From IMG/VR virus record IMGVR_UViG_3300024520_000237, positions 1 through 36,687 of that record: a DNA stretch of 36,687 bases. One strand, given 5' to 3'. The notes beneath the pieces were generated by a model. That model was not told the origin of the DNA and did no database searches. It was given only the letters and a program-made list of their open reading frames with translations. Source of the stretch: a virus. The position numbers and the translations under genes were made by a program. This document shows positions 7,562 through 31,692 of the stretch, one piece after another (positions within the stretch are counted from its first letter, which is position 1; each line of letters begins with the position of its first letter).

Positions 7562-8311
7562 ATGGCAGAACGCAAAACCCCCAAAGTTTCAGTATTATTA
7601 ATTTCTTACAATGGCCGTGCCCCTTTATTAAAAAGGGCTGTAACCAGTGTGTTGAAACAAAACTACAAAAACTGGGAGCTGATAATCCAAGACGATTGTT
7701 CAACGGATGGGTCTTTTAATTTAATTAAAACGCTAGGGCAAGCCGACCCCCGCATAAAAGTTTACAGAAACGAAACCAACTTGGGCATTTCTAAAAATAG
7801 GTTGGCCGCTTATGGCAATGCTACGGGTGAGTTGATATGCCATTTAGACAATGATGATTTTTTGTACGCGCACGCTTTAGGGTACATGGCTGCTACTTTT
7901 GTACAAAACCCAGAGATAGGGTTTGCTTACAGTGACCAAGCTTTTGTAGATGGGGAAGGAAGGCCTTTTGAATACGTAGCGAACAAAGAATTTGGTGAGC
8001 CCCTAACACAGTATGGGTGGCGGCATTTAGGAATGTTTAGGCGAAGTGCGTATGAAGCCACCGAAGGCTATAACACCAACTTGGATTGGCCTTGTGAAGA
8101 TGGCGATATATTCATGCAGATAGCAGAGAAATTCCCATTTAAGCGGGTGCCTCATGTTTTGTATGCTTATAACAATGTAGGGGAGCACGCCTCACACGGG
8201 GTGCCCCAATGTCAACATTGTTTGAGTAGAGCAAAGTGTAATTACATACGGGTATGGGCAGCGGCTTGTGACCCTCCCATAGATGTAATTACTTGGAAAG
8301 CGGCGGCATAA
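7562..8311 (+). CDS. GT-A family (family 2) glycosyltransferase
   Basis: This is a 249-residue enzyme predicted to transfer a sugar from a nucleotide-sugar donor. It has the standard GT2 start VSVLLISYNG (about 9-18), the donor-binding DDCSTDGS (about 44-51), the metal-binding DxD-type HLDNDD (about 94-99) and a downstream CEDGDIF (about 179-185) that may supply the acceptor-side acidic residue. The C-terminus has an unusual CQHCLSRAKC cluster that could bind a metal. There is no membrane segment, so it is probably soluble. It sits between portal and scaffold genes. The target could be a capsid protein, host envelope glycan or modified DNA; the sequence does not decide. Confidence 0.85.
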   Translation: MAERKTPKVSVLLISYNGRAPLLKRAVTSVLKQNYKNWELIIQDDCSTDGSFNLIKTLGQADPRIKVYRNETNLGISKNRLAAYGNATGELICHLDNDDFLYAHALGYMAATFVQNPEIGFAYSDQAFVDGEGRPFEYVANKEFGEPLTQYGWRHLGMFRRSAYEATEGYNTNLDWPCEDGDIFMQIAEKFPFKRVPHVLYAYNNVGEHASHGVPQCQHCLSRAKCNYIRVWAAACDPPIDVITWKAAA

Positions 8312-11035: not shown

Positions 11036-11947
11036 ATGGCTATTTCACGAGCGCAACTCCTCAAGGAACTATTACCGGGTTTGAATGCCCTGTTCGGCCT
11101 TGAGTACGCACGATATGGCGAAGAAACTAAAGAAATCTTTGAAACAGAGAGTTCTGACCGTTCCTTCGAGGAAGAAGTAAAGTTGTCAGGCTTTGGTGCC
11201 GCCCCCGTTAAAAACGAGGGTTCCGCCATTCAGTATGACAACGCACAAGAAACCTACACGGCCCGTTATGTGAATGAAACAATTGCTATGGGATTCTCAC
11301 TGACCGAAGAGGCCATTGAGGATAACCTGTACGATTCCCTTTCAGCACGTTACACAAAGGCACTAGCTAGAGCGATGGCTTACACCAAGCAAGTTAAAGG
11401 TGCAGCTATTCTCAACACTGGTTTTGCCGGTGGCCCTACTTATGGGGACGGTCAGGTTTTATTTTCAACCGCGCACCCGTTAGTTTCGGGCGGTGTAAAC
11501 TCCAATACTCCAGCTACTGGCGTTGATTTAAACGAGACTTCCTTGGAAGCCGCCGTTATCCAAATCGCTGGTTGGACGGACGAACGTGGTCTGTTGATCG
11601 CAGCTAAACCTCGTAAGCTTGTTATTCCACCTGCGTTGCAATTCGTTGCTACACGTTTGATGGATTCGGAGCTTAGAGTTGGCACTGCTGACAACGACAT
11701 CAACGCCATTCGCAATAACGGTGTAGTTCCAGAGGGTTATACAGTTAATAACTATCTGACTGACGGTAATGCGTGGTTCTTGATGACCGACGTTCCAAAC
11801 GGATTGAAGCATTTTGTCCGTACCCCAATGTCTACATCTATGGATGCTGACTTTGACACTGGTAATAGCCGTTACAAGGCTCGTGAGCGATACAGCTTCG
11901 GCGTATCTGACCCACTTGGTGCGTATGGTTCTGCCGGGGCTACATAA
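11036..11947 (+). CDS. Major capsid protein, Mu gpT-like
   Basis: This is a 303-residue protein forming the icosahedral shell. The pattern ALFGLEYARYGEETKEIFET, then EEEVKLSGFGAAPVKNEG, ARYVNETIAMGFSLTEEAIED, GQVLFSTAHP (about 138-147) and PNGLKHFVRTPMSTSMD is that of Mu gpT-like major head proteins with the HK97 fold. It has a TAAGGAGA site. A strong intrinsic terminator follows within about 40 bases, as expected for the most heavily expressed gene of the module. There is no fused protease or long N-terminal delta domain, consistent with a separate scaffold gene. Confidence 0.9.
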   Translation: MAISRAQLLKELLPGLNALFGLEYARYGEETKEIFETESSDRSFEEEVKLSGFGAAPVKNEGSAIQYDNAQETYTARYVNETIAMGFSLTEEAIEDNLYDSLSARYTKALARAMAYTKQVKGAAILNTGFAGGPTYGDGQVLFSTAHPLVSGGVNSNTPATGVDLNETSLEAAVIQIAGWTDERGLLIAAKPRKLVIPPALQFVATRLMDSELRVGTADNDINAIRNNGVVPEGYTVNNYLTDGNAWFLMTDVPNGLKHFVRTPMSTSMDADFDTGNSRYKARERYSFGVSDPLGAYGSAGAT

Positions 11948-11985
11948 AAGAGTCCTCCCTAAAAATCATAACTTTTTGATTTTAG

Positions 11986-12008
11986 CCCCGCCTAGTGCGG
12001 GGTTTTTT
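11986..12008 (+). terminator. Strong intrinsic terminator after major capsid gene
   Basis: CCCCGC (11986-11991) and GCGGGG (11997-12002) form a 6-bp GC-rich stem with loop CTAGT, followed directly by six T (12003-12008). It lies 39 bases past the capsid stop and separates the packaging/head transcript from the next block. A weaker AT-rich inverted repeat (AAAATCA/TGATTTT, about 11962-11983) precedes it. Confidence 0.88.
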
Positions 12009-12009
12009 A

Positions 12010-12039
12010 TTGTGTTAAAAAAGATTTATGCTATATACT
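12010..12039 (+). promoter_or_regulatory. Candidate promoter after the terminator
   Basis: TTGTGT (12010-12015) and TATACT (12034-12039) are separated by 18 bases. The -10 region lies in TATATACTCTA (12032-12042), which recurs at 2091-2101 in the main control region. It would restart transcription for the genes from 12131 onward and produce a leader of roughly 80 bases. Confidence 0.45.
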
Positions 12040-12045
12040 CTAAAA

Positions 12046-12118
12046 CAACCGGGAATAACCGGTGTATCTGACAGCTCCCGGCTGACGACATGCAGACAGA
12101 TATACCCTACTCGCATGT
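12046..12118 (+). ncRNA. Pseudoknotted 5' leader RNA candidate
   Basis: Stem P1 pairs 12061-12070 with 12097-12106 (10 bp, one G-U). Inside its loop a hairpin pairs CAGC (12072-12075) with GCTG (12081-12084). ACATGC (12088-12093), also inside the P1 loop, pairs perfectly with GCATGT (12113-12118) beyond P1, giving an H-type pseudoknot. In addition CCGGGA (12049-12054) can pair with TCCCGG (12076-12081), the inner hairpin loop. The 3' strand of the pseudoknot touches the TGAGGA ribosome binding site (about 12118-12123) of the next gene. This layout resembles translational riboswitches or autoregulatory leaders. I do not recognise it as a named RNA family. Confidence 0.55.
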
Positions 12119-12130
12119 GAGGAATCTAAA

Positions 12131-12715
12131 ATGGCTAGAACCACTTTTTCGGGGCCAGTGCGCTCTCTCAATGGGTTTGTTTCTGCCGGAACGGGGAATC
12201 TTTTTTTACTCGACGCCGACAATACAACACTTGCACTTCAACTATTTCCAACACCGGTAGTCGATGGTAACAACAACCCAACTGGCGCAATTACTGTGGG
12301 CAGTGGGGGAATTATGAATGTGTACAACAGTACTAACCCTACTGGAGCGGCACAACTTACGTTACCTGCGGTCTTGTCTACAACGCCAGATGATAATACT
12401 GACCCTAACCAGCAAAACAATCTGGGGGCTACGATTACTCTTTATATGCCCTTTGACCTAGCTAACAACCTAGTTGTCAAGCCAACAGGTGCAGACATTT
12501 TCACTGGCTTTGCTATGGCTGTGGATGCAGCGGGTCTTACTACTACGTTTATTAGTGGAGTAGGGGATACTACTTTTACTTGGAACGGTGGCACTACTGG
12601 TGGGGACATAGACAGTAAGGTTACCTTTACTGCTATAACTGCTGGTGCGTGGTTTGTAGAAGCTGTTTGTATAGGTGCTGCTGGCGGCGCTGCTGCGACT
12701 CCATTTAGTGCTTAA
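12131..12715 (+). CDS. Virion structural protein of unknown function
   Basis: This is a 194-residue beta-rich protein (MARTTFSGPVRSLNGFVSAG), rich in Thr, Gly, Asn and Ala, with no charged coil, signal peptide or enzyme motif. It has a TGAGGA site that borders the pseudoknotted leader just upstream, so its translation may be controlled by that RNA. Being the first gene after the capsid terminator and having its own promoter candidate suggests high, separately tuned expression, as for a second decoration or head-tail protein. I cannot assign it to a named family; the low-charge Gly/Thr composition fits an exposed capsid protein. Confidence 0.7.
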   Translation: MARTTFSGPVRSLNGFVSAGTGNLFLLDADNTTLALQLFPTPVVDGNNNPTGAITVGSGGIMNVYNSTNPTGAAQLTLPAVLSTTPDDNTDPNQQNNLGATITLYMPFDLANNLVVKPTGADIFTGFAMAVDAAGLTTTFISGVGDTTFTWNGGTTGGDIDSKVTFTAITAGAWFVEAVCIGAAGGAAATPFSA

Positions 12716-28857: not shown

Positions 28858-31692
28858 ATGTCTAAAGATTTTGACTTAATAGAGTTTATTACTTCTCACA
28901 CAACTCCTGAGAAATTTGAAAGGGGCGATGAAGTTATAAACGTGCTTGCAGAATTAGACATGGGGAGTCCTGTGCAAGGGTTTGCTCCGGGTGGTGTTAT
29001 AACGGATCAAACTCCAAACTATGACAAACCTTACAACAAAGCTTTAGCCGATGCAGCGGCCAAAGCTTTGGCGGCATATTACGCGGGGATGTCAAACGAA
29101 GGAGGGTTTGCAGCAGATACACCTGCTTGGGCAATGACCCCCCAGTTGGGAAGTGCTGGCTCCGCTGCAGATATGTTCTTTAAAAATTTAATAATTGAAG
29201 CCGGAGTAGCAGAGCTTGACGATCTTACTAAGTTCCTTAACAGCCCAGAGGGGGGAGATTCAGTAAGTAAAACCATCCAAGAACAATTGGTAGATACTAT
29301 GGGGGGTGGGACAGGGGCACAGGATACTTTTTATGATTTAGTAAATATAGCTGAATCTGAGCCCGTGTCCATGACGCAAGCAGAGTTAAATCAACTCACT
29401 GTTAAAGTATTAGCCGCCTCTACTAAGGAGGAAGCATCTCAAATTTTAGCCGATGCCAATATTTTTCACGATGTGGATACGCTAGATATTTCTACGGGGG
29501 CTGATGCGGGAGGTTCGTTAGCAGATAGGGTGCAAGTTATCACTGAAGAGGAGTCTTCTTCTGCCGCTTCTTCTGCCGCTTCTTCTGCCGCTTCTTCTGC
29601 CGCCGCTGATGCTAATCCTGCTGGCACTTGGTATGACGAAACTGGTAAAGCTCTCCCTGGTTTCGACCCTAATACAGGTATGTGGGACGGGGGTACTTTT
29701 AGTGGGTATTTTCCTACGTTTGTTCCCGAAGAAACGGAAGAGTCTTCTTCTGCCGCTTCTTCTGCCGCTTCTGCCGCTGCCGCTGCCGCCGCTGCCGCTG
29801 CCGCTGCTGATGCTGATCCCACTGCCGCCGCTGCCGCTGATGCGGCGTCTAGTAATGTGCTTGCCGGTGGGGAAGGTAGCGAGGCGGCTACTTGGGACGA
29901 TTTTATAAACACTATTTTTGATTTACCTACCGAAACAGGGTCCGTGGCTTTTGAGGGTAGTGACGACGCTACAGTTATCGCCCAACTAGAAGAAGCAATT
30001 GATGCCGAAACTGACCCTATATTGCAGAAAAAATTAGAAATTGAATTGGCTAAATACAAAGGTGCAGACACTACTGCATTGGAAGAAGAATTAACGGCTC
30101 TAGAAACCGCAGCGGCAGCTACTGCTGAAAGTAACAACCCCGTACTTTCGGGGGAGGGGACTGTTACTTATGACGATCTCGTAGATTTGACAGAAGCATC
30201 GGCGGGTGCATTAGAAGCTGCATATGGAGGGACTTATGTTCCCGTTGAAAAAGTTATTGGCGGCAGTCCCACGAATGTTACGGTATCGGGTAGTCCATTG
30301 CCTATTACAGTTACGGGCTCTACGGTAACTACACCTACACCTACACCTACACCTACTACCACTGTAACTACTGGGTCCACTGGGTTGGTAATTACTGGGC
30401 CTACTGTAACGCAAGGCCCTACTACAACTACTGGCCCTACTACAACTGTGACTACTGGTCCTACTGGCCCTACTACAACTGTGACTACTGGTCCTACTGG
30501 TCCTACTACCACCGTGACTACTGGTCCTACTGGTCCTACTGTTACTGTGGCTACAGCCCAAAGTAAATGCAAAGATAGTGGTGGTACGTGGGATTACGAC
30601 AATAAAGTTTGTGCTGATTGCCCCCCTAATAAAGAAAATTTATTTGGGGTCTGCGTAGATAAATGTGCTGAGGATGAAGAACGAAAGAATGGAGTGTGTG
30701 TAAAGAAAACAGTCATTACTATCCCTACACCTACACTTACACCTACACCTACTACAACTACTGGCCCGACTGGCCCTACTACAACTGTGACCACTGGTCC
30801 TACTGGCCCTACTACAACTGTGACTACTGGTCCTACTGGTCCTACTGGCCCTACTACAACTGTAACTACTAATGGCACTTGCACTGGTGGAAAAGTTAAG
30901 GATGCTAGTGGCAATTGTGTGTGCCCAGCTACTAAACCCAATTGGAATGCAACTACTGGAAAGTGTGAAGCTGGTGGGGGAACTGGTCCCACTGGTACAG
31001 GAACAACTACTCCCACTGGAACGGGTACTACAACTACTAAGGGCACTTGCACTGGTGGAAGAGTTAAAGATGCTAGTGGCAATTGTGTGTGCCCAGCTAC
31101 TACACCCAATTGGAATGCAACTACTGGAAAGTGTGAAGCTGGTGGGGGAACTGGTCCCACTGGTACAGGAACAACTACTCCCACTGGAACGGGTACTACA
31201 ACTACTAAGGGCACGTGCACTGGTGGAAGAAGTAGAAATGCTAGTGGCAATTGTGTTTGTACTGGCAATACTCCTAACTGGAATGCAACTACTCAAAAAT
31301 GTGAGGGGACTGGTAGTGGGGAATGTACTGGTGGAAGAAGTAAAAATGCTAGTGGCAATTGTGTTTGTACCGGCAACACCCCTAATTGGAATGCAACTAG
31401 TGGGAAGTGTGAAGGAGCGGGTAGTGGAGAAAGTCGTTTTCCTACTTCATGGGGATCAAGCCCGAACGTAATAGAAGGTGAGCCAGGGGAACTTGTAGAC
31501 ATTGATTATCTTTACGACATTGGAGGAAAAAGCATTTTTGCACCGACTATGGAAGAAGATGACGATTCTTTGGAAACTGTTTATTCAACTTTTAGCGATA
31601 TGGCCTATGGCAACAGTGGTGGTATAGTAGCTGATGGCGATATAGACGATTTAATACTCTATTTGAGAGGAAAAAATGATAACAATACCTGA
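28858..31692 (+). CDS. 944-residue low-complexity, Cys-rich virion protein
   Basis: In order: an alpha-helical N-terminal domain (1-220) with the FAPGGVITDQTP motif; Ser/Ala runs (SSAASSAASSAA); an Ala run of more than 12 residues (near 310); an acidic helical part; a Thr/Pro stretch TPTPTPTPTTT; collagen-like repeats TGPTGPTTTVTTGPTGPTTT; a Cys-rich knot (CADCPPNKENLFGVCVDKCA); a second GPT repeat block; four modules with CTGGRVKDASGNCVCPATTP and C at the end; and a C-terminal ENDxx acidic domain. No Shine-Dalgarno is visible at ATG 28858. The shape suggests a fibrous, partly disulfide-linked particle protein. Homology to a named family is not recognised. Confidence 0.65.
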   Translation: MSKDFDLIEFITSHTTPEKFERGDEVINVLAELDMGSPVQGFAPGGVITDQTPNYDKPYNKALADAAAKALAAYYAGMSNEGGFAADTPAWAMTPQLGSAGSAADMFFKNLIIEAGVAELDDLTKFLNSPEGGDSVSKTIQEQLVDTMGGGTGAQDTFYDLVNIAESEPVSMTQAELNQLTVKVLAASTKEEASQILADANIFHDVDTLDISTGADAGGSLADRVQVITEEESSSAASSAASSAASSAAADANPAGTWYDETGKALPGFDPNTGMWDGGTFSGYFPTFVPEETEESSSAASSAASAAAAAAAAAAAADADPTAAAAADAASSNVLAGGEGSEAATWDDFINTIFDLPTETGSVAFEGSDDATVIAQLEEAIDAETDPILQKKLEIELAKYKGADTTALEEELTALETAAAATAESNNPVLSGEGTVTYDDLVDLTEASAGALEAAYGGTYVPVEKVIGGSPTNVTVSGSPLPITVTGSTVTTPTPTPTPTTTVTTGSTGLVITGPTVTQGPTTTTGPTTTVTTGPTGPTTTVTTGPTGPTTTVTTGPTGPTVTVATAQSKCKDSGGTWDYDNKVCADCPPNKENLFGVCVDKCAEDEERKNGVCVKKTVITIPTPTLTPTPTTTTGPTGPTTTVTTGPTGPTTTVTTGPTGPTGPTTTVTTNGTCTGGKVKDASGNCVCPATKPNWNATTGKCEAGGGTGPTGTGTTTPTGTGTTTTKGTCTGGRVKDASGNCVCPATTPNWNATTGKCEAGGGTGPTGTGTTTPTGTGTTTTKGTCTGGRSRNASGNCVCTGNTPNWNATTQKCEGTGSGECTGGRSKNASGNCVCTGNTPNWNATSGKCEGAGSGESRFPTSWGSSPNVIEGEPGELVDIDYLYDIGGKSIFAPTMEEDDDSLETVYSTFSDMAYGNSGGIVADGDIDDLILYLRGKNDNNT
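30874..31427 (+). repeat. 168-bp tandem repeats coding Cys-rich modules
   Basis: Units begin at 30874, 31042 and 31210, exactly 168 bp (56 residues) apart. The first two are nearly identical. The third lacks the GTGPTGTGTTTPTG tail, and a fourth short copy starts at about 31322. Each encodes a module with four Cys in the spacing C-x(11)-C-x-C-x(14)-C and ends in a Gly/Thr-rich linker. Upstream, similar GPT(TTTVTT) repeats occur. Confidence 0.85.

Follow-up and report, generated by a model that had tools for sequence, protein, structure and literature searches.

Two Interlocking Pseudoknots Lie Upstream of the Gene at 12131

A leader RNA of roughly 80 bases with two interlocking pseudoknots lies between the major capsid protein gene and the gene at 12131 of the window, i.e., of the whole 36,687-nt (36.7-kb) virus record IMGVR_UViG_3300024520_000237. 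The structured leader at 12049–12118 was confirmed by sequence comparison. It likely acts in cis as a 5′ leader RNA controlling how the putative virion surface protein gene at 12131 is translated, and represents a variant of an already known but functionally orphan RNA kind, Mu-gpT-DE. Comparative sequence analysis supports the helices, the placement at the 5′ end, the contact with the Shine-Dalgarno (SD) site and the near-obligatory link to the downstream gene, while repression or switching of translation and the factor sensed are what we infer. The leader spans about 12046–12130, is followed by the gene at 12131 and occurs as a single copy within the window. The features of the locus are as follows.

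11036–11947, plus strand: major capsid protein gene, Mu-like gpT fold, directly upstream of the leader (PF10124 Mu-like_gpT, E 4e-10; PF25209, E 2e-15; phrog_371)
11984–12004, plus strand: intrinsic terminator 3′ of the capsid gene, 8-pair stem with a T run
12034–12039, plus strand: TATACT, a −10-like hexamer ending 9 nt before the PK1 5′ strand
12049–12054, plus strand: PK1 5′ strand CCGGGA, pairing with TCCCGG at 12076–12081, near the predicted mRNA 5′ end
12061–12070, plus strand: P2 5′ arm GGTGTATCTG, pairing with 12097–12106
12071, plus strand: conserved junction A, nearly invariant in the alignment of relatives and at the same position in the RF03012 consensus
12072–12084, plus strand: P2a hairpin, CAG (12072–12074) with CTG (12082–12084), its loop holding the PK1 3′ strand TCCCGG (12076–12081)
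12085–12086, plus strand: conserved junction AC, conserved in the alignment of relatives and also in the RF03012 consensus
12088–12093, plus strand: PK2 5′ strand ACATGC, pairing with GCATGT at 12113–12118
12094–12096, plus strand: conserved junction AGA
12097–12106, plus strand: P2 3′ arm CAGATATACC, pairing with GGTGTATCTG at 12061–12070, with covariation among 67 leaders
12110–12121, plus strand: P4 hairpin CTC-GCATGT-GAG (12110–12112/12119–12121), its loop (12113–12118) being the PK2 3′ strand
12119–12123, plus strand: SD GAGGA, read from the sequence, its first three bases within P4
12131–12715, plus strand: candidate virion surface protein gene with the conserved N-terminal tag MARTTFSGPVRS; its DSL-LC04 counterpart is annotated 'cement protein', and its product has a weak spike fold match

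All pairings proposed in a preliminary description of this stretch are present in the sequence, namely CCGGGA/TCCCGG, GGTGTATCTG/CAGATATACC, CAGC (12072–12075)/GCTG (12081–12084) and ACATGC/GCATGT. Its label 'H-type' understates the fold. A simple H-type pseudoknot has two helices, one hairpin loop being paired to an adjacent strand, whereas the window leader is a chain of two pseudoknots, PK1 and PK2 crossing on one stem, plus P4. The 4-bp inner helix that had been described is a conserved hairpin, but its conserved stem comprises the 3 bp CAG/CUG, and the fourth pair, C75–G81, competes with PK1 for G81. Since GCATGT is also the loop of the hairpin CUC-GCAUGU-GAG, the 3′ strand of which is the SD, the PK2 contact is kissing-like.

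Covariation among Close Relatives

Homologous loci were gathered in three ways, by the downstream protein, by the capsid protein and by a DNA pattern, and 67 leader sequences were aligned with MAFFT without structure information. All helices had compensatory changes. Standard pairs were observed in 94.3% of the pair cells, and changes on both sides occurred at 19 of the 28 pairs, including 7 of 10 in P2, 4 of 6 in PK2 and 2 of 3 in P4, in which CUC/GAG is replaced by CUU/AAG and others. The P2a stem was 100% paired, with AU, GC and CG variants at its middle pair, and 99.5% of the PK2 cells were paired. The number of cells changed on both sides was 125, as compared to 30.1 in shuffles (none of 500 reached 125) and at most 24 when the partners were slid. 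The preliminary description had named a lack of covariation in 12061–12070/12097–12106 or 12088–12093/12113–12118 as the result that would speak against the element; covariation was present in both helices. With nested pairs only, the fold of the window was not significant by itself (z = −1.25), since nested MFE folding cannot represent crossing helices.

A tree-based null was written for this analysis, and about 4,500 column pairs were scored. The eight best column pairs comprised three of P2, one of P2a, one of PK2, two of P4 and one that is a one-column neighbor of P4. Three P2 pairs lay above every tree-null value, while P2a reached an E of 0.12 and PK2 an E of about 1 in this pattern-selected set. 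The PK2 value is explained by the choice of the set, which was made partly by a pattern that fixes most of PK2, and was resolved by the tag-selected set described below. PK1 was only 78.6% paired on the MAFFT alignment and was not significant under the tree null. Since the 5′ strand of PK1 slides, it scores poorly on such an alignment, and an alignment-free swap test was therefore used instead. When the helix columns were excluded from tree building, the inferred both-side events numbered 52 for P2, 7 for P2a, 8 for PK2, 11 for P4 and 12 for PK1; PK1 also had 51 breaking changes, which appear to reflect mostly misalignment of the 5′ strand. A covariance model built from the nested part of the leader found the element once per locus in 38 of 80 loci chosen by the capsid protein alone. 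The hairpin P0 (CCGG 12049–12052/CCGG 12059–12062) was rejected as a switch partner of PK1; it is without significant covariation and absent from other leader classes.

One Architecture in Leaders Selected by the Protein Tag

A second sample of 120 loci was chosen by the N-terminal tag of the downstream protein, using its coding sequence and ignoring the leader. The sequences of these leaders look unrelated and have one common architecture, in the order P2 stem, A, a 12-nt hairpin with a loop that pairs with the mRNA 5′ end (PK1), AC, the PK2 strand, AGA, P2 and the PK2 partner at the SD. Automatic parsing succeeded for 95 of 102 distinct leaders. By eye, four of the seven unparsed leaders belong to the Mu-gpT-DE type, the other three are long-type leaders in which a junction base demanded by the parser is altered, and L277, although parsed, is a Mu type that was parsed wrongly. 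Among 78 diverse leaders, the stem and loop of P2a together measured 12 nt in 71, and AGA stood just before the P2 3′ arm in 72, although junction counts are partly by construction, since the parser demands the A/AC/GA junction. The closing pair of P2 was G–C in 73 of 78, with 49 distinct P2 arms. The conserved junction bases thus number about six, and the helix sequences vary freely.

PK1 and PK2 were not demanded by the parser. All 78 long-type leaders formed their own PK1 and PK2 (score of at least 12); with strands swapped between phages, 15% formed PK1 and 13% formed PK2. A swapped strand did at least as well as the true partner in 3.8% of cases for PK2 (23 motif classes) and in 4.5% for PK1 (20 motif classes). 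The complete layout was found in 77 of the 78 long-type leaders, as compared to none of 2,340 dinucleotide shuffles. With their wide sequence turnover and fixed architecture, these leaders are well suited for testing methods of RNA structure prediction.

The leader and the N-terminal tag form a conserved border before exchangeable protein modules, as would a DNA-level element, i.e., a palindrome bound by a protein or a hot spot of recombination where modules meet. However, an element acting as DNA rather than RNA is very improbable in view of the crossing helices and the SD coupling, and is further disfavored because the G–U pairs (55 of 756 P2 cells in the 78 diverse leaders; UG is the commonest type at one P2 pair of the 67-leader alignment) become A–C mismatches on the other strand.

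The long type is present in the sequenced phages HTVC027P, HTVC023P, 023Pt_psg01 and DSL-LC04. Both marine and freshwater phages carry it, among them the most abundant phages known to infect the ocean bacterium Pelagibacter (HTVC023P and HTVC027P are Pelagibacter phages). In the GC-rich Synechococcus phage MinM2 (L223, 1527–1660), another structured-looking intergenic region occupies the slot downstream of the capsid gene and, by eye, does not follow the architecture. The capsid protein of such GC-rich phages is 72% identical, and the capsid matches of Pag-Yong1 and Pra-JY27 had identical statistics.

Predicted Position at the Start of the mRNA and Contact with the SD

The best hexamer resembling TATAAT ended 6–9 nt ahead of the PK1 5′ strand in 52 of 75 leaders selected by the tag; therefore, the mRNA should begin almost directly with this strand. 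Since the hexamer scan is permissive, with 28 of 75 shuffled controls reaching five of six matches, the evidence for a promoter is the fixed distance and not the hexamer match. A new transcript starting after a strong terminator had been described for the window. Both the terminator (11984–12004) and TATACT are present, but no full sigma-70 consensus promoter was found by a consensus scan in the window, and the promoter call there consequently relies on comparative placement. The predicted 5′ end can be checked in existing data, as RNA-seq of HTVC027P infection has been published. In six loci (L103, L130, L132, L164, L173 and L215), the leader abuts the upstream terminator without room for a promoter, and these leaders may therefore come from read-through or processing.

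With regard to the SD, the PK2 partner overlapped it in 42 of the 78 long-type leaders, abutted it (0–1 nt) in 26 and lay within 6 nt in 10. In some classes PK2 itself is the SD, as in CCUCA/UGAGG (L093, L256, L307) and CCUAG/CUAGG-AGG (L321). Helices, 5′ placement and SD contact support the earlier description of a structured 5′ leader that starts a new transcript and ends at the SD.

The capsid gene was located upstream in 82 of 92 tag-selected loci, and the link to the downstream gene held in about 100 loci. Where endonuclease-like ORFs follow the capsid gene (L025, L031, L032, L035, L039), the leader stays with the downstream gene. Endonuclease-like or unrelated ORFs are inserted directly after the capsid gene in L080, L081, L091 and L098 as well.

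A leader that senses nothing might also be considered, the fold of which would guard the mRNA 5′ end from decay and set a fixed translation rate, with PK1 hiding the 5′ end. The position of the PK1 5′ strand at the predicted transcription start in 52 of 75 leaders would fit such a role, as would conservation confined to about six junction bases amid freely varying helices. We regard this ligand-free leader as rather unlikely; it leaves unexplained the tie between PK2 and the SD in every class and the retention of A/AC/AGA across hosts.

Relation to the Orphan RNA Mu-gpT-DE

The preliminary description had matched the leader to no named RNA class. Accordingly, Rfam gave no match at gathering for the window, and RF03012 none even at E up to 5; nothing was found at gathering for the diverse long-type leaders, including L034, L038, L053, L055, L084, L065 and L042. 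However, slot and junction tie the leader to RF03012 (Mu-gpT-DE). This model matched at 61–71 bits in the capsid-downstream slot of the relatives L048, L090 and L029. The Mu-gpT-DE type was carried by about 30 of 80 capsid-selected loci (regular expression and by eye) and by roseophage CRP-902. Like the window leader, Mu-gpT-DE is found 3′ of a Mu-gpT-like capsid gene, to which in the window the PF10124 match of the 11036–11947 product corresponds, and before a tagged gene of the same family. The RF03012 consensus, CCUG-A-CAG...CUG-AC-...GA-CAGG-AG...AUG, has in common with the window leader a core of outer stem, A, inner hairpin, AC, a segment ending in GA and outer stem, the junction bases being located in the window at 12071, 12085–12086 and 12095–12096. 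The 3′ end of Mu-gpT-DE, CAGG-AG, also lies on the SD, and the RF03012 model includes AUG.

The two differ in that RF03012 is 53 nt long, with a 4-bp outer stem (CCUG/CAGG) and a model without PK1 or PK2, whereas the window leader has a 10-bp stem and two pseudoknots. Instead of a CCUG/CAGG stem with its 3′ strand on the SD, the window has its 10-bp stem, which stops 12 nt short of the SD. Since neither the model nor the short SD-bearing stem applies, the window leader was filed as a superfamily variant and not as a member of RF03012. Hybrids (L248, L287, L311, L317) in which a long P2 and PK1 are joined to a Mu-like GCCAAGA segment point, together with slot and junction, to homology of the long type and the Mu-gpT-DE type, and we read the window leader as the large, SD-coupled branch of a Mu-gpT-DE superfamily. 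Elsewhere in the contig of one hybrid (L287, 12397–12446), a glutamine riboswitch (RF01739) was matched at 48.5 bits (gathering 35).

Rfam types Mu-gpT-DE as 'Gene; sRNA', and this label is what speaks for a free-standing small RNA. Such an RNA is hardly credible, as the element runs into the SD and the start codon, the RF03012 model ending with AUG, and is coupled, across about 100 loci, to a single downstream gene. The type assigned to RF03012 looks wrong because the model contains the start codon.

The Downstream Gene Probably Encodes a Virion Surface Protein

The N-terminus MA-x-TTF-x-GPV-x-S of the downstream protein is nearly fixed across phages (window and about 125 homologues), and the remainder is highly variable; lengths range from 57 to 239 aa, of which the shortest may include early stops or contig artefacts. 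The fixed tag and exchangeable remainder resemble an anchor plus a displayed domain. In DSL-LC04, the gene in the matching position, with an identical tag, is annotated 'cement protein'. The AlphaFold model of the 12131 product (pLDDT 66) weakly matched the fold of the Pseudomonas phage Pa223 capsid spike (E 0.012) as well as unnamed phage proteins and fibre-like domains; due to the moderate quality of the model, the spike match is only suggestive. The 12131 product had no PHROG and no significant Pfam family, and no close relative of it was found among the isolated phages in the collection. PDB sequence searches gave no match for the capsid protein and the downstream protein of the window, and weak chance-level matches only for the DSL-LC04 protein. 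The product is therefore a probable virion surface protein.

Proposed Mechanism and Comparison with Known Systems

The leader probably governs the timing of ribosome access to the gene of the putative virion surface protein. Transcription would resume downstream of the capsid terminator, and the first mRNA bases would therefore form the PK1 strand. The leader would fold while emerging: P2 and P2a would form, and the P2a loop would capture the mRNA 5′ end (PK1). The junction strand would pair with bases that adjoin the SD or overlap it (PK2, here with P4) and hinder 30S binding. A factor at the conserved A/AC/AGA junction would then shift the PK2-closed state, or ribosome competition alone would set translation. 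Since phages that infect different hosts have retained the junction, the factor is most likely phage-encoded, and the capsid protein, as a conserved neighbor across hosts, would be the best candidate. Self-binding by the downstream protein is less easily envisaged because it is variable beyond the N-terminus. As no conserved alternative fold was found among the leaders, switching remains something that we infer. A translational riboswitch, coat-protein autoregulation and ribosome pausing had been offered at the outset; the SD coupling across many classes favors translational control.

In preQ1, SAM-II and related riboswitches, the pseudoknot 3′ strand contains or abuts the SD. The long-type leaders likewise are conserved structured leaders reaching the SD, and a compact pseudoknot aptamer beside the SD with few invariant junction bases would suit a metabolite riboswitch of the translational SD-pseudoknot type, working like preQ1 or SAM-II. 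Nevertheless, this is improbable: beyond the SD pseudoknot there is neither a sequence match nor a metabolic gene context, the element always precedes one virion-protein gene and never occurred with metabolic genes among the loci examined, and the leaders had no Rfam riboswitch matches.

Leader-RNA control of capsid genes is classic in RNA phages; to our knowledge, few cases are known in tailed DNA phages. The ligand of the E. coli rpsO operator is S15. The rpsO (S15) gene is autoregulated and has a pseudoknot in its translational operator (mentioned in PMC3014915), which differs from the window leader in topology and sequence. In the T4 gene 32 leader, protein spreading is nucleated by one pseudoknot, which lies 67 nt 5′ of the start codon (PMC3014915). 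Like the window leader, this T4 leader has a pseudoknot at a phage mRNA 5′ end, where it serves as translational operator (PMC3014915). Unlike the T4 gene 32 leader, the window leader has two pseudoknots and ends directly at the SD, and a binding protein is only predicted.

More tentatively, double-pseudoknot operators may be very widespread in tailed DNA phages, a possibility that we hold with less confidence than translational control itself. The orphan Mu-gpT-DE would be their reduced branch, the six-base junction would sense capsid assembly (e.g., free capsid protein) and time virion surface protein synthesis, and the pairing sequences would change too quickly for ordinary RNA family models to capture more than fragments.

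Elsewhere in the window, an ORF (7562–8311) that is flanked in the head module by the portal gene and the GroES-like position resembles by eye a family 2 glycosyltransferase. Segments of two kinds, long repetitive ones of the TTTGPTGPTTTV type and repeated ones of the TGGR-ASGNCVC type, are found at 30200–31300 in the ORF at 28858–31692.
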